DNA of 21,652 bases from a virus, in the IMG/VR virus record IMGVR_UViG_3300025141_000903, positions 1-21,652 of that record; one strand, given 5' to 3'. Below, one piece after another: positions 7,165 to 21,557 of the stretch. Under the pieces are notes generated by a model, which saw nothing but the letters and a program-made list of their open reading frames with translations, was not told the DNA's origin and did not search any database. The first letter of the stretch is position 1. The number at the start of each line of letters is the position of its first letter. The translations under genes and the position numbers were made by a program.

Positions 7165-7719
7165 ATGGCCGGAGAATTTTGGAGTAACCCAGCAGCAGAA
7201 CCAAAACGTTCACATCGTTTTTTGGTTTCGTTTGAATTACCGGGTGGACTCAACACCCAATTGTATGCAAGAACGTTCACTAAACCTGGGTGGACAGTTG
7301 GTGCCACGGAGCATCAGTTTTTAGATAAAATATATTATTACCCAGGACGCGTTACTTGGAGCGAGGTAACTGCTCAGTTTGTTAATTCAGCCGATCCCGA
7401 TATGGATGAAAAGATTCAAGAGATATTGACTTCTATGGGTTGGGTTAACCCCAACGACGTAGGAAATTCCGGCGGCAGCGTCACCAACGGTGGCACTCCA
7501 AATAAGGACATGGCCGTTGCGGCGCTGGGGAGCAGTGTCGTTGTCACAGAGCTTGATGGCGAGGGAGGCGCGATTGGAAATTATAAACTTAATAATCCTT
7601 TTGTAGTTTCTGTTAGTTACGGTACTTTGGATTATTCCAGTGAAGATTTATTAACCGTTGATATTGGATTTCGTTATGATTGGGCCACGTACACCCCTGG
7701 CGCATCCGCCGCAACATAG
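7165..7719 (+). CDS. gp19: Tail tube protein, T4 gp19-like
   Basis: Hexamer-forming subunit of the inner tail tube through which DNA passes. The length of 184 aa is close to T4 gp19 (163 aa). The N-terminus has FWSN..P..SHRFLVSFEL and KPGWTVG, typical of the tube fold in which the first strand starts just after an aromatic/HRF motif. The C-terminus NPFVVSVSYGTLDYSSEDLL, then TVDIGFRYDWA, is the closing beta pair. A Gly/Ser/Asn-rich loop (about residues 93-110) is GC-richer than the rest. It sits directly after the sheath gene, which is the standard order. GAGG lies upstream of the ATG. The next gene carries the same N- and C-terminal motifs. Confidence 0.87.
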   Translation: MAGEFWSNPAAEPKRSHRFLVSFELPGGLNTQLYARTFTKPGWTVGATEHQFLDKIYYYPGRVTWSEVTAQFVNSADPDMDEKIQEILTSMGWVNPNDVGNSGGSVTNGGTPNKDMAVAALGSSVVVTELDGEGGAIGNYKLNNPFVVSVSYGTLDYSSEDLLTVDIGFRYDWATYTPGASAAT

Positions 7720-7769: not shown

Positions 7770-9032
7770 ATGCCAAAATCGGATAGTCAGTCACCGGGCC
7801 TGGAACCCTCGGCCGGTACGAGCGCTGCCCCATTCTGGACCGCCGCCAATAAGCAACCACTACAACAACATCGATTTCTAGTCAATTTCCCTATTTATGA
7901 GCCCCTCATGTCGCTCGACTCGATAGACACAGCTCACCTGTTTACGGAGGGAAATAAGAATATTTTGGGCGCTGCAGCAGCTGTTGCCATCGCGAATGAG
8001 TTCAGTAGTAATTCTTCCGACAACACGACCGTCCTTCAAAACTCGTTAGCCCAGTGTACGAGCGTGAGCCAGATTGTAGACCAGGTACTCATCGCGACGT
8101 CCAGCGCAAAGTATTATCCGCACTACTCTCAGATGTCAGTAAACGAGCGAGAGAGTCAAGTCACGAAAAAGCTTTTTTCATTGGCAGCCTACAAAAATTC
8201 ATTTCAAAAGGGCCGCGAAAGAATATCCAATAACAACAGAAGCAATGACATAGTCAAGCTGTCAGTAACTCAGTTCGCGGCGCTATCATTTCAGCCGCCT
8301 TCTTTCGGTTTTGTTCCGGGTGTGGCCGATTATAAAGATGGTAAGGGCGGCCCCGTTATTGATCCTAGTAAATATCAATATTCGAGAGGGGATGCAACAT
8401 TAACCCTTATTACAACATTGCAGGAAAACTTACATTTTTCATTAAATTTTTTGTTTAATGTGGCGAAATCAACAAAGCGCCTTACTAAAAAACAAAAACA
8501 GAACAAACGCGCACAATTGGTTAGTGGCGGCAACATGAACGCCCAGAATGCCCTACTGTATCCAAATGCTGTGGTGGATCTTAATATGCAGGAGCGCGTA
8601 TTGGTGATAAAAGAACTGTCTGCGCAGGGCCGTCCGGTCGGTCTCCATCTGCTCCACGATCCGGCCATAAAATCAGTAGACTTTGGAGAGTTTAATTATG
8701 GCGGTACTGAATTACTTAAGGTGACACTAACACTGACCTATTCGGCTAACCCCGATCGTGGTCCTCTTGGATATTATTCTTATCAGGCCTTGGCCAGGAT
8801 CCCCGAACCCGCCCCCGCGCCTCCCAAGAAGAAGTCGGTCACCGCCGCCCCCGATGGGAGCCAGGTAATCTCGGCTGCCAGCGCGGCGACCGACCCCGGG
8901 AAACAGCCAGAAGGCGAGATAAGCAGCCAGCCGGGCGACCTAGACCTCGACGCCCTCGACGCCAAGGTTCGGCGAGGGCCGGCCTCAGAGGCTGATGTCG
9001 CTCGGATCCGCGAGGCGCAGCGACGACGATGA
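7770..9032 (+). CDS. Second tail-tube-fold protein (tube initiator or tube paralogue)
   Basis: Likely a tail-tube relative acting at the baseplate end of the tube, by analogy with T4 gp54/gp48, which share the tube fold. Seen directly: its FWTAANKQPLQQHRFLVNF and the tube protein's FWSNPAAEPKRSHRFLVSF agree at F, W, P, H-R-F-L-V and F. Its C-terminal DPAIKSVDFGEFNYGGTELL parallels the tube's NPFVVSVSYGTLDYSSEDLL. Between these lies extra sequence (about residues 55-150) with Ser/Asn/Gln-rich helices. After about residue 345 comes a Pro/Ala/Asp/Arg-rich tail encoded by very GC-rich DNA (8881-8940 is 43/60 G+C). The tail ends in three CGA Arg codons before TGA. Gene position between tube and chaperone supports a tail role. 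Which T4 protein it replaces is not certain. Confidence 0.65.
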   Translation: MPKSDSQSPGLEPSAGTSAAPFWTAANKQPLQQHRFLVNFPIYEPLMSLDSIDTAHLFTEGNKNILGAAAAVAIANEFSSNSSDNTTVLQNSLAQCTSVSQIVDQVLIATSSAKYYPHYSQMSVNERESQVTKKLFSLAAYKNSFQKGRERISNNNRSNDIVKLSVTQFAALSFQPPSFGFVPGVADYKDGKGGPVIDPSKYQYSRGDATLTLITTLQENLHFSLNFLFNVAKSTKRLTKKQKQNKRAQLVSGGNMNAQNALLYPNAVVDLNMQERVLVIKELSAQGRPVGLHLLHDPAIKSVDFGEFNYGGTELLKVTLTLTYSANPDRGPLGYYSYQALARIPEPAPAPPKKKSVTAAPDGSQVISAASAATDPGKQPEGEISSQPGDLDLDALDAKVRRGPASEADVARIREAQRRR

Positions 9033-9128: not shown

Positions 9129-10001
9129 TTGACACGTAGAAATAACCCCGATAGATTGGGCGCGCAACAGCCGGATCCACCGAATATACCAGAAAACTTA
9201 GGAGAAGAGCAGCGCTCGGATCCTTTAGCTTTTATAGTTCCAACTGAATTTGTCGCGCTACCATCGTTGGGCAAATATTACCCCGAAGGCCATGCACTTC
9301 ATAATGAAGAGGCAGTCGAGATTAAATTTATGACCGCCAAGGAAGAAGATCTTCTGACCTCTAGATCACTTATAGAAAAAGGCATTGTCTTGGATCGCTT
9401 AATCGATAGTCTTTTGGTTGATAAAAGCGTGAGATCAAGAGATTTGCTAATATGTGACAGAAATGCCATATTGGTCTGTGCCCGGGCCTCAGGCTATGGA
9501 AGTGATTATAGTCCGCAAATAAGTTGTCGATCCTGCAATGAGACAGACAACTACCCTTATGATTTAACTGATGCCCTAGTTAAAGGGCCTCCTACCGACG
9601 AGGAGCTAGAGGAGCTTCAAGTGCAATATGTTGGCAATTGCAATTTTAAGGTTAATATTCCAAATTCATCGGTGCATTTGGTTTTTAGGCTTTTAAATGG
9701 GCACGACGAAAGAGTCATGCTAGAATTAGCAGAAAAGCGTAAGAAAAAGAAACAAAATGATCAACTTGTAACTGATCAACTGAGACTTATGATTGTTTCG
9801 GTCTTGGACCACGAAGACCGCAGCATTGTTGAGAGGTATATTGACTCATTACCTCTCCGAGATTCGCGCTTTTTACGTCAATTATATGAAAGCGTGAGTC
9901 CATCTATCACTTTGCGGAAGGAGTTCGTCTGTAATCATTGTGATTACGAGGGCGAAATTACGTTTCCCTTTACAACCGACTTTTTTTGGCCTGACGTCTG
10001 A
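9129..10001 (+). CDS. gp26: Baseplate hub / tail assembly protein, T4 gp26 family
   Basis: Belongs to the family known as T4 bacteriophage base plate protein (gp26). The core is VALPSLGKYYPEGHALH, then IKFMTAKEEDLLTSRSLIEK, then LIDSLLVDKSV and the AILVCARASGYG helix. Two Cys pairs, C133/C136 (CRSC) and C268/C271 (CNHC), bracket the later part and should form a zinc ribbon. The start is TTG at 9129, with AGAGAGG 7 bases upstream; no in-frame ATG fits before the conserved core. In T4 gp26 acts in baseplate hub assembly. Here the gene sits between tube and tape measure, the usual place of tail assembly chaperones. The last codons (DFFWPDV then stop) contain a T7 run where a shifted frame would continue into a second domain. 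Confidence 0.75.
   Translation: MTRRNNPDRLGAQQPDPPNIPENLGEEQRSDPLAFIVPTEFVALPSLGKYYPEGHALHNEEAVEIKFMTAKEEDLLTSRSLIEKGIVLDRLIDSLLVDKSVRSRDLLICDRNAILVCARASGYGSDYSPQISCRSCNETDNYPYDLTDALVKGPPTDEELEELQVQYVGNCNFKVNIPNSSVHLVFRLLNGHDERVMLELAEKRKKKKQNDQLVTDQLRLMIVSVLDHEDRSIVERYIDSLPLRDSRFLRQLYESVSPSITLRKEFVCNHCDYEGEITFPFTTDFFWPDV
9981..9987 (+). other. Candidate +1/-2 frameshift site (T7 run)
   Basis: Seven T's occupy two Phe codons plus one base near the end of the gp26-type gene. Skipping one base, or slipping back two on the T run, moves ribosomes from the frame that stops at 9999-10001 into the frame running to 10233. A -1 shift would instead hit TGA almost at once. The product would be about 367-368 aa. 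A one-base homopolymer error in the assembly would look the same. Confidence 0.45.
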
Positions 10002-10233
10002 TTATCACGAAAATATATATGAACAATTTTTCTTTTTAAAATACCACGGTGGATGGGGGCTTATGGAGGCATATAATCTTCCCATTAAGCTGCGCGAGTG
10101 GTTTGTAAAAAGACTTGTGCGTCAGAAGAAAGAAGAATCGGAGGCGGTACAGAGCGCCTCTCGGGGCTCGGGAAAGAGTACGTCCAGCACTCTTGGGCCC
10201 GGAAAAGGCCCCGCGCCGAATGCCCGGCACTAA
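9988..10233 (+). CDS. Out-of-frame C-terminal extension of gp26-type protein (chaperone second domain?)
   Basis: Short frame overlapping the end of the gp26-type gene. It reads HENIYEQFFFLKYHGGW, then EAYNLPIKLREWFVKRL, a compact helical domain that looks constrained, followed by a Ser/Gly/Pro-rich GC-rich tail. The first in-frame ATG (10063) would cut through that domain and has no good ribosome site, and upstream codons offer only CTG, ACG or ATA. Expression by frameshift at 9981-9987 is therefore the best explanation. The pattern (aromatic/hydrophobic strand-helix, YHGGW, then LREWF) recalls the second domain of P2-type GpE+E' chaperones (FHWPP, then WREKA). That likeness is my inference, not a demonstrated homology. 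An independent protein with a rare start codon is the alternative. Confidence 0.5.
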   Translation, partial: GLTSDYHENIYEQFFFLKYHGGWGLMEAYNLPIKLREWFVKRLVRQKKEESEAVQSASRGSGKSTSSTLGPGKGPAPNARH

Positions 10234-10275: not shown

Positions 10276-10674
10276 ATGTCTGACGACTTACAACCAATTA
10301 CTATTAATTTAAATGCCAATAAAGAGGGTCTCATTGGCGAGAGCTTTTTGCAGATGTTTGGCCAAGCAGTTAAAAATTTGCTTGGGTATATGTTTAAGGA
10401 ATCTCCTCCCACTTTTCGCCCCACGATGTCCCAACGGGCTAAAATGGCCATGGCCGAGGCTGAAGAGTTTCACTCCGCCCCACGGGCGAAAATTGTAGGT
10501 ACTCCCATACAAATAGCCGCTTTCGGAAATGTGTTATCCAAAGAAAAGAAATATATGGACACCTTTCTCAAATATGGTCTTAATGACCCACAATCCTTTA
10601 AGTCGCATGCTGAACTTGATAAGGCGGTCGCAAATTTCGAGCGAGAAACCGGCATCAAGTGGCCGCTCAACTAG
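10276..10674 (+). CDS. Small protein before the tape measure, function unknown
   Basis: A 132-aa protein I do not recognise by function. It starts PITINLNANKEGLIGESFL with an amphipathic helix (FGQAVKNLLGYMF), has a basic Ala/Glu-rich middle (residues 50-75), and ends with AFGNVLSKEKKYMDTFLKYG, then a charged helix and GIKWPLN. There is no signal peptide, membrane segment or cysteine. GAGGGC lies upstream of ATG 10276, 12 bases before the tape-measure start its own stop is reached, so the two are likely co-translated. Its place between chaperone and tape measure suggests a tail assembly or tail-tip part. T4 has gp28 and gp51 as hub assembly factors, but no motif ties this protein to either. 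Confidence 0.7.
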   Translation: MSDDLQPITINLNANKEGLIGESFLQMFGQAVKNLLGYMFKESPPTFRPTMSQRAKMAMAEAEEFHSAPRAKIVGTPIQIAAFGNVLSKEKKYMDTFLKYGLNDPQSFKSHAELDKAVANFERETGIKWPLN

Positions 10675-19201: not shown

Positions 19202-20389
19202 TTGTTATTTCAGGCTCTTGATCATAAAAAAGATTGTGTTGGATATTTTGCCAACAATGCCATAGTGACAGGCCAAACGGTGCCCTCCAATGGTGAGACA
19301 TGGGAGTATACGCCCCATCTGGCGGGCGCCTCCTATGAAATTGCGCGTATCTATACGGGGGGGGCGACTCTCTCAAAGGTTTGTCCGGGCGATATGAAGG
19401 AGGAATGGGAAAAGATTAAACAAACGCTTAGATCGTCTCTCAAGGCCTTTAAAACAGCGCGGTTTTCTCTTGATGAAAATTGTTTTTATGACGCTGTGCC
19501 AGAATATTTTCTTTTTCAATATCTTGAAGCCAAAAACAAGATCACAAAACATGTTTTGGACACTTATCCGCGGCCACAAAATTATGATTTTATGTATAAT
19601 CTAGTAGAGATGCTCTCCAGTATTCGATCGCAGACCTTAAATATCGATATGGGGCCGATTAAGCATCTTTTAAGTTCGGTTCGAGGTAAAAACTTTCATA
19701 GAACAATTCAAGCCGTTGACCACCTCTGTGACTACAACCCATGGGGCACAGTAACTGGACGATTAGCTACAAATTCCAACACTTTTCCTATTCTTACAAT
19801 GAATAAAGAATTTCGAGCATGTATCAAACCCAAAAATGATTGGTTTATCGAACTAGATTTTAACGCGGCCGAGCTAAGGGTCCTTTTAGCTCTTGGAGGA
19901 GCAAAACAACCCCTAAATGATATTCACGATTGGAATGTCCAGCATATTTTTGATGGAAAAATAACCAGAGAGGAAGCTAAAACGAAGACGTTTGCGTGGC
20001 TTTACTCGCAAAGGACCAACAACGAGTTAGAGCGGCTTTATAACAAGGACGTGATACGAAATAAGTACTGGGACGGTTCCAAGGTTGAGACTGACTATGG
20101 TAGGATGATAGAGAAGGTAGATGAGCATCGGGCCCTAAACTATATCATTCAGAGCACTACAATTGATATGGTTCATGAACAAGCACATAAAATTTACGAA
20201 CTTTTAAAAGAGAAGAAAAGTAATATTTCATTTTTAATTCACGATGCGGTATATATCGATCTTGCAGAAGAAGATCGATACGAAATTCTAAATTGGCTTG
20301 ACATCTTTAAGAAAACACGCTATGATATATTCAAGGTTAATCTTGCGGCAGGTAAAAACCTAGGAGAGATGAAGAAATTAAAGTTATGA
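19202..20389 (+). CDS. polA: Family A DNA polymerase, short, polymerase domain only
   Basis: Copies the phage genome. Family A motifs in order: TGRLATNSNTFPILTM (185-200, cf. TGRLSS); motif A ELDFNAAELR with catalytic D219 and E224; motif B R256-x3-K260-x3-F264-x3-Y268, the same spacing as E. coli Pol I R754/K758/F762/Y766; then ALNYIIQST (N313, Q317); and motif C IHDAV with catalytic D348. Odd points: motif C is H-D-A where Pol I has H-D-E. The protein is only 395 aa, versus about 600 for a Klenow-type enzyme. I see no DxE exonuclease motif in residues 1-180. Rhodothermus phage RM378 is known to split polymerase and 3'-5' exonuclease between genes, and a similar split is plausible. Start is TTG 19202, with AGGGAGG 4 bases before it. 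It overlaps the next gene by ATGA. Confidence 0.9.
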   Translation: MLFQALDHKKDCVGYFANNAIVTGQTVPSNGETWEYTPHLAGASYEIARIYTGGATLSKVCPGDMKEEWEKIKQTLRSSLKAFKTARFSLDENCFYDAVPEYFLFQYLEAKNKITKHVLDTYPRPQNYDFMYNLVEMLSSIRSQTLNIDMGPIKHLLSSVRGKNFHRTIQAVDHLCDYNPWGTVTGRLATNSNTFPILTMNKEFRACIKPKNDWFIELDFNAAELRVLLALGGAKQPLNDIHDWNVQHIFDGKITREEAKTKTFAWLYSQRTNNELERLYNKDVIRNKYWDGSKVETDYGRMIEKVDEHRALNYIIQSTTIDMVHEQAHKIYELLKEKKSNISFLIHDAVYIDLAEEDRYEILNWLDIFKKTRYDIFKVNLAAGKNLGEMKKLKL

Positions 20390-20703
20390 AGAAATATTAT
20401 GATAAGCTTGTTCGTGATAAGATTCCCAATATTATTAAAGAAGCGGGGAAGAACGCTCAAGTACGCCCGGTTTCGCCCGAAAAGTTTAAAGCGTATGCTT
20501 TAACAAAATTGCGAGAAGAAGTAGAAGAATTTATCGACAATCCGTGTGCGGAAGAGGCCGCCGACATTCTTGAGATATTGTATACTATATGTGAGCATCA
20601 TGATGTCCGGCCTCTTACAATTGAGACTGAAAGAATTTCTAAACGTGTCAGCAAGGGCGCCTTCGACTCGGCCCTTATTCTAGAATGGGTAGATGAAGAT
20701 TGA
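20386..20703 (+). CDS. MazG-like NTP pyrophosphohydrolase
   Basis: A 105-aa all-alpha NTP-PPase. The start YYDKLVRDKIPNIIKEAG is the signature of the phosphoribosyl-ATP-pyrophosphohydrolase-like group. The metal-binding residues are present: E44-E45-x-x-E48 and E57-x-x-D60 (LREEVEEF, then EEAADIL). Such enzymes cleave (d)NTPs to (d)NMPs plus pyrophosphate. In phages they are proposed to clean nucleotide pools or to tune host (p)ppGpp signalling; which applies here cannot be seen. ATG overlaps the polymerase stop by 4 bases, and its own stop overlaps the next start by 4 bases, so it sits in a coupled trio with replication. The protein appears complete and ends in an acidic tail. Confidence 0.88.
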   Translation: MKKYYDKLVRDKIPNIIKEAGKNAQVRPVSPEKFKAYALTKLREEVEEFIDNPCAEEAADILEILYTICEHHDVRPLTIETERISKRVSKGAFDSALILEWVDED

Positions 20704-21557
20704 AAATCGTTGGTTTGGGAAAAGCGGGCTGTAATATTGCAAAAACTTTTGGAAAGTTTCCACAGTATGAAGTCTTTATGGTCGATACCGAAGAGGATGC
20801 GGACATTGTAATCAAGAAAAGAGAGAACCATGAAGATTATGATGCCAACTTTCCAAATCTTAAAAGAAAGTTCAAATTTACCAATGAAGAGGTTATTTTA
20901 GTTACGTGTGGTTCGGGCCAGATCTCAGGGGGAGTCCTCCAGCTTTTGAGCCAACTTCAAAATAATAAAATACGGCTTGTTTATATACAACCTGATCTTA
21001 CCCTATTAAGCGAAACACAGAAGAAGCAAGAAAAAATTGTTAGAAATGTGCTGCAGGAGTATGCGCGCTCCGGACTCCTTCAGGCGATTTATCTTGTCGA
21101 TAATAGCAAGATTGAAAAAAGTATTGGTGATGTACCCATTACTGGCTACTATGAAACTCTCAATCAGGCGATTGTTAATACGCTTCATATGATCAATATT
21201 TTTGAAAACTCTGAGCCGGTGATAGGAAATTATATAACCCCAGCCGAGATAAGCCGAATTGCAACAATTGGAATCGTGAACCTCGATGCGGAAAAAGAAG
21301 AAGAAAATTGGTTTTATGACTTGACAAGCGCACGCGATGTGGTATACTATTATGGTATCAATCAAGAGGATCTAAACAATGACGGCACGTTGTTCAGGAA
21401 AATTAATAGTTTTGTGAAGTCAAAAATTAAAGACAACATGAACATATCCTATGGGATATTTGAAACATCCTATGAACAAAAATATTGTTATTGCATTAAG
21501 TATTCATCTATGGTACAATCATTTTTAGAACAACTAGACGATCAGGATATTAGCTGA
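20700..21557 (+). CDS. Divergent tubulin/FtsZ-superfamily protein
   Basis: A 285-aa protein with the layout of an FtsZ/tubulin GTPase core. KIVGLGKAGCNIAKTF (2-17) parallels FtsZ IKVIGVGGGGGNAV. YEVFMVDTE matches VEFFAVNTD. GSGQISG (71-77) stands where tubulins have GGGTGSG. IRLVYIQPDLTLLSETQKKQ fits ILTVAVVTKPFNFEGKKR, and LLQAIYLVDNSKI fits VDSLITIPNDKLL. GNYITPAEISRIATIGI (176-191) falls where FtsZ has its T7 loop NVDFADVRTVM. The two T7 aspartates needed for GTP hydrolysis appear absent (I179 and A182/E183). It is shorter than FtsZ (about 380 aa). Start is TTG 20700, overlapping the MazG-like stop as TTGA. A plain nucleotide-binding Rossmann protein (G5-x-G7-x-x-G10) is the alternative. 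Homology is inferred from motif order. Confidence 0.6.
   Translation: MKIVGLGKAGCNIAKTFGKFPQYEVFMVDTEEDADIVIKKRENHEDYDANFPNLKRKFKFTNEEVILVTCGSGQISGGVLQLLSQLQNNKIRLVYIQPDLTLLSETQKKQEKIVRNVLQEYARSGLLQAIYLVDNSKIEKSIGDVPITGYYETLNQAIVNTLHMINIFENSEPVIGNYITPAEISRIATIGIVNLDAEKEEENWFYDLTSARDVVYYYGINQEDLNNDGTLFRKINSFVKSKIKDNMNISYGIFETSYEQKYCYCIKYSSMVQSFLEQLDDQDIS

Follow-up and report, generated by a model that had tools for sequence, protein, structure and literature searches.

A gp26-type tail gene with a conserved +1 extension, probably a tail assembly chaperone made in short and long forms by frameshifting

Introduction

Tail-chaperone pairs occur as frameshifted, fused or two-gene versions. The closest frameshifted systems to the locus described here are gpG/gpGT of phage lambda and E/E' of P2, with which it shares a place before the tape measure, overlapping reading frames, and a short form accompanied by a C-terminally extended form. 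Lambda G/GT differs in direction, as its shift is -1, and no sequence similarity of the present gene to lambda gpG/gpGT or P2 E/E' was detected. Tail-gene frameshifts other than -1, as proposed for the present case, include a very likely +1 shift in the Halorubrum myovirus HSTV-2 and a -2 shift in phage Mu, while T4 is named in the same 2016 review as the exception to tail-gene frameshifting among long-tailed phages (PMC5009743).

Two citing papers (PMC10885494, PMC12846349) report that Vladimirov, Gautam and Davidson (Virology 2022, PMID 34826709) put forward genes for tail chaperones in T4-like phages. In the summary given by the PRFect paper, a short gene is accompanied by a long, fused one (PMC10885494), and the Adele paper cites the proposal for poly-T -1 sites (PMC12846349). 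On these summaries, the link to T4 is already known, as the -1 cases probably are too, and the equivalence of gp26 and tail chaperones is an earlier idea of those authors. The likeness to the present locus lies in the short and long (fused) chaperone, encoded in some phages by separate genes and in others through a poly-T -1 site; the differences, as far as the citing papers describe those systems, are a +1 shift, a site of UUU followed by U or C, and a large, mostly uncultured clade. No +1 clade in the gp26 family was found in the literature searched, in which the 2022 paper is represented by its citing papers, and the clade appears to be new.

Gene order and family assignment

The window is a 21,652-base viral contig, analysed at full length; the features of the locus are collected in Table 1. 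Its gp26-type ORF matches PF12322 (T4_baseplate) in a profile search with an E value of 2.6e-10 and 40.8 bits, above the curated cut-off of 24.5, and so belongs to the T4 gp26-gp51 family. It also matches phrog_150 (baseplate hub) with an E value of 3e-13.

The genes run in the order tube, second tube-like protein, gp26-type gene, 132-aa ORF and 853-aa presumed tape measure, an arrangement that agrees with the placement between tube and tape measure typical of lambda G/GT-type chaperones, the window's tape measure being assigned by position and length only. It has no family match in Pfam or PHROG searches, yet a tape measure is annotated at the corresponding position in Flavobacterium phage immuto and Listeria phage LIS04. 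In immuto it is the next gene after the gp26-type gene, past an annotated ORF of 36 aa. The location that the earlier note had given the gene is thus borne out by the order in the window and by the immuto annotation.

Two neighbours deserve mention. The 420-aa protein at 7770-9032 has a weak tail-tube match over its middle to C-terminal part (phrog_4542, E 0.0018) and is possibly a second, enlarged tube protein. A short frame resembling the 132-aa ORF recurs in several relatives.

Table 1. Features of the gp26-type locus and its surroundings
Feature	Position	Strand	Basis
Tail tube protein (context)	7165..7719	+	phrog_4542 tail tube, E 7e-16
Short form (TAC-N, gp26-type), 290 aa, TTG start	9129..10001	+	PF12322, phrog_150, AlphaFold2 pLDDT 90
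Predicted long form (TAC-NC), 367 aa by +1 (368 aa by -2)	9129..10233	+	inferred product
Putative slip site TTT TTT TGG; tRNA-Phe would re-pair +1, UUU to UUU	9981..9989	+	same position in 163/163 loci
+1-frame extension (TAC-C domain, DUF6760-like)	9988..10233	+	dN/dS 0.051; profile match to -1-frame extensions, E 5.6e-13
Frame-0 stop TGA of the short form	9999..10001	+	sequence
132-aa ORF (context), between extension and presumed tape measure	10276..10674	+	no Pfam/PHROG family match
Presumed tape measure protein, 853 aa	10686..13247	+	position and length

A second domain in the +1 frame

The gp26-type ORF ends with the codons TTT TTT TGG CCT GAC GTC TGA. Its T7 run occupies 9981-9987 and the TGA begins 12 bases past the last T, as first described. 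From about 9898, the +1 frame runs without interruption until a stop at 10231-10233 and encodes FGLTSDYHENIYEQFFFLKYHGGWGLMEAYNLPIKLREWFVKRL followed by a variable tail, whereas the -1 frame is closed at once by a TGA at 9992-9994. The second domain can therefore be reached only by a +1 or -2 shift and, since it sits in the +1 frame, the window does not fall into the class of -1 frameshift heptamers.

Relatives were drawn from IMG/VR and a collection of annotated phages, giving 163 loci with a clean gene end whose identity to the query protein goes down to about 25%, and a nonredundant set of 69 below 80% identity. The second domain lies in the +1 frame in all 163, and eight further loci from bacterial or archaeal genome bins agree. 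A second frame that overlaps the first and is joined to it at a slippery site, as in lambda G/GT-type genes, is therefore a conserved property of this group, and the arrangement is, by this comparison of loci, far beyond chance. In all nonredundant relatives, the distance from the A-site codon to the frame-0 stop is 3-6 codons, A-site codon included. Alignment of homologous loci, which the earlier note had proposed as a check, thus finds both the +1 overlap and a slip-compatible site kept in every clean locus.

The extension has a dN/dS of 0.051 over 176 pairs when read in the +1 frame, a value to be taken as a measure of how strong the constraint is rather than as a test statistic, as the pairs are not independent; the other two readings of the same DNA give 1.6 and 2.4. 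Judged by its codons, the +1-frame extension is under strong purifying selection. The domain had at first been called constrained from its appearance, and both this ratio and its presence in all 163 loci uphold the description.

DUF6760 (PF20546) matches the second domain weakly (E 0.0019, 18.7 bits, under the 27-bit cut-off for membership) and reaches an E value below 0.01 in 10 of 32 relatives, so that only the label "DUF6760-like" is used here. DUF6760 occurs in contractile injection systems; it is named in no paper of the literature searched. Sequence searches of the PDB with the short form and with the extension returned nothing useful, and an AlphaFold2 model of the fused protein from single-sequence input (pLDDT 32) is meaningless.

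The putative slip site

The putative slip site is read as TTT-TTT-TGG in 117 of the 163 loci, TTT-CTT-TGG in 36, TTT-CTA-TGG in 4 and TTC-TTT-TGG in 3, and TTT-CTA-TTC, TTC-TTT-CGT and TTT-CTT-TAC occur once each. Every one of these sites has UUU with U or C after it, so that tRNA-Phe can re-pair one base forward. The third position is T in 100% and 98% of cases at the two site codons, while elsewhere in these genes TTC accounts for 168 of 671 Phe codons (25%); on this codon usage, the slip-site codons are constrained beyond coding need. The variants TTC-TTT-TGG and TTT-TTT-TTC, seen in L063, L071, L079 and L196 (genome bin), show that a site can dispense with the T7 run or with the UGG codon.

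The usual stimulators are not apparent. No downstream RNA structure was found at the site (mean z -0.34), and no Shine-Dalgarno-like stimulator, which occurs in 4% of cases against 11% in the in-gene control. Upstream RNA structure is weak (-0.9 to -1.06 versus about -0.3 in control windows), and this slight excess may reflect coding constraint.

The release factor 2 gene prfB has a +1 site, CUU UGA, with which these sites would share a +1 slip at a weak or slow A-site codon; some relatives carry CUU U. They differ from prfB in that the clade of the window has neither a stop codon in the A site nor a Shine-Dalgarno-like element.

Proposed frameshift and alternative explanations

The locus most likely encodes a tail assembly chaperone in short and long forms made by +1 frameshifting, a reading to which we give a probability of about 0.88. 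Most ribosomes would terminate at 9999-10001 and release the 290-aa short form, and a minority would move one base ahead at the UUU codon(s) of 9981-9986. There, peptidyl-tRNA-Phe would leave its UUU and pair anew with the UUU that overlaps it (UUC in relatives) while the next codon, UGG in the window, waits, and the slipped ribosomes would go on in the +1 frame to yield a long form of 367 aa that ends in a small helical domain. If lambda G/GT is a guide, the part common to both forms would coat the tape measure, the extra domain would recruit tube subunits, and both forms would leave before the virion is completed. Sequence comparison establishes the frame arrangement, the constraint on the slip site, the selection on the extension and the homology of the domains; what we infer is that ribosomes slip at the site, how often they do so, and that the products serve tape measure and tube as chaperones. 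The programmed frameshift suggested earlier as the link between the gp26-type protein and its second domain is strongly supported by the comparative evidence.

The same fusion could arise by a -2 slip, as in phage Mu, with one extra Phe in the product. Mu does use such a shift (PMC5009743), and the T7 run allows -2 re-pairing in the window and, by simple pairing rules, in 154 of the 163 loci. Under the same rules, however, +1 re-pairing is possible in all 163, including the nine loci (TTC-TTT-TGG, TTC-TTT-CGT, TTT-CTA-TGG and TTT-CTA-TTC) in which a -2 slip is impossible. Of the two directions that had been left side by side at the outset, +1 is accordingly favoured and -2 is unlikely. A separate overlapping gene for the second domain, translated by re-initiation or from a non-standard start, is less likely still. 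Such a gene exists in Pseudomonas phage Cygsa01, where the overlap is TAATG, and the annotation is similar in D509 and BSP101; the window itself has an ATG at 10063. This ATG falls inside the second domain, however, and the +1 clade has no conserved start: ATG, GTG and TTG are all absent between slip site and domain in 58 of the 69 nonredundant relatives. A separate gene also leaves the constraint on the slip-site codons unexplained. In L076 and some other loci, the +1 frame is closed by a stop shortly before the T-run, so that initiation farther upstream is impossible there. The original statement that the second domain has no usable start needs qualifying, as GTG 9940 and ATG 10063 do exist in frame, but it stands insofar as relatives conserve neither of them. 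A separate gene with its own ATG had also been named in the earlier note as evidence that would speak against frameshifting. It occurs in only one distant clade (Cygsa01, with D509 and BSP101 similar), and, given the several known versions of chaperone pairs, does not refute the proposal.

Two further explanations depend on the homopolymer. RNA polymerase could slip on the T7 run, which is present in the window and most loci, and some mRNAs lacking one U would then yield the fusion by ordinary translation. Alternatively, the frame change could be a sequencing or assembly error, homopolymer runs being error-prone, or a recent frameshift mutation of a simple fusion gene. In 46 of the 163 loci, the longest T-run is only 3 or 4, and these loci keep the arrangement; therefore, neither polymerase slippage nor base-calling error explains it, and both were rejected. 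The -1 relatives, which use T6, count further against polymerase slippage, which is very improbable. The case for error also has to contend with 171 loci, some of them lacking a homopolymer at the site, that come from metagenomes, isolates and genome bins, and its chance is negligible. The +1 frameshift thus remains the preferred reading.

Versions in related phages

Relatives of the gene differ in how the second domain is attached. Versions with a -1 shift, in which TTT TTC is preceded by T (the classic U UUU UUC) and the second domain lies in the -1 frame, occur in Synechococcus phages DSL-LC02 and S-RIM8, Pelagibacter phage Mosig, KVP40, Aeromonas phage Ah1, Cronobacter phage LPCS28, Agrobacterium phage Atu_ph07, one contig (L171) and three huge-phage records (L005, L182, L184). 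RAS14 has U UUU UUU with the second domain in the -1 frame, and viral scans with its protein found no relatives. The -1 versions, among them those of Kyanoviridae, have their site at the same Phe-Phe as the +1 clade. The -1 genes (cyanophages, KVP40, Aeromonas Ah1 and RAS14) share with the window their family, the Phe-Phe position and a homologous second domain; what sets them apart is the heptamer, U UUU UUC or U UUU UUU, together with the direction. Further +1 versions are found in Bacillus phage SP-15, Listeria phage LIS04 and Streptococcus phage GXN1.

In Salmonella phage BSP101 (Kuttervirus; L206), a small second ORF near 1500-1700 is open in the -1 frame across the gp26 end. Its annotated start is an internal ATG, and the case is ambiguous between a separate gene and a -1 shift.

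Relationship to T4 gp26 and gp51

PF12322 is matched by T4 gp26 (208 aa) as well as by gp51 (249 aa), with about 48 additional residues in gp51; along phrog_150, gp26 reaches column 235 and gp51 column 280. The -1 extensions align with phrog_150 columns 231-281, which correspond to the gp51 C-terminus, and also match phrog_634 ("baseplate hub assembly catalyst"; the three best have E values of 1e-25 to 9e-12). A resemblance of the small KVP40 ORF to the gp51 C-terminus is noted in the record of that phage. In profile comparisons, the -1 extensions match the gp51 C-terminus with an E value of 8e-8 and the +1 extensions of the window's clade with an E value of 5.6e-13, against 0.52 and 0.078 for the negative controls. 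Direct comparison of the +1 extensions with the gp51 C-terminus is not significant (0.087), no better than a negative control, and the link therefore rests on the -1 set as a bridge. Through this bridge, the gp51 C-terminus corresponds to the frameshift-encoded domain, the difference being that T4 uses two genes, a short 26 and a fused long 51, and no frameshift.

The short form gives a confident AlphaFold2 model from 54 related sequences (pLDDT 90). The HK97 tail chaperone 2ob9 ranks first by Foldseek against the PDB, with an E value of 0.36 that is not significant alone, and first again when PDB chains are aligned with VIA-align (Z 5.5, 88 aligned residues, rmsd 5.8), a Z score that is middling for the tool. 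YqbN (3klu) is second with a Z of 5.0; YqbN/XkdN proteins are tail chaperones. The matched residues of the short form are 16-128 for 2ob9 and 37-125 for 3klu. With such modest scores, the model only suggests that the gp26 short form resembles the tail-chaperone fold. The gp51-like domain of the -1 relatives and these structural matches nevertheless lend support to the view, expressed at the outset, that the T4 gp26 family shares the role of frameshifted chaperones.

Evolution of the shift direction

On a tree of 50 proteins, which has several long branches and an arbitrary midpoint root, the +1 rows form one side of a branch with a support of 77/85. The separate-gene rows and the two-gene rows also each form one side of a branch, while -1 rows occur on both sides of the root. 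The four states need three changes, and the simplest reading, subject to the arbitrary root, is a -1 ancestor with one switch to +1. With slightly better than even confidence, we suggest that the large +1 clade goes back to one ancient reversal of the shift, from -1 to +1, at a Phe-Phe of the gp26 gene whose position stayed fixed. This clade would shift at UUU with U or C next to it, no downstream structure or Shine-Dalgarno element being detectable, and T4 would have swapped the shift for two genes.

If this is correct, a single gene family would display all known ways of making a two-form chaperone. The T4-type family has -1, +1, separate-gene and two-gene routes to short and long forms, which allows a change in shift direction to be followed as evolution within a single gene. 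The short +1 sites apparently lack the usual stimulators, and their occurrence in cultivable phages (immuto, SP-15 and Mel-JY01) makes them directly testable. Genomes of the +1 clade are mis-annotated at this position, with the extension either missing or called a separate gene.

Other open reading frames in the window

Three ORFs near the end of the window were noted in passing. The 285-aa ORF at 20700-21557 begins MKIVGLGKAGCNIAKTF and has a later VTCGSGQISGG stretch; it resembles a tubulin/FtsZ-type GTPase by eye and has no Pfam or PHROG match. The 105-aa ORF at 20386-20703 resembles a MazG-type pyrophosphohydrolase by eye, also without a family match. The ORF at 19202-20389, with a TTG start, is a piece of a family A DNA polymerase that matches part of the family profile only (PF00476, E 3e-13).
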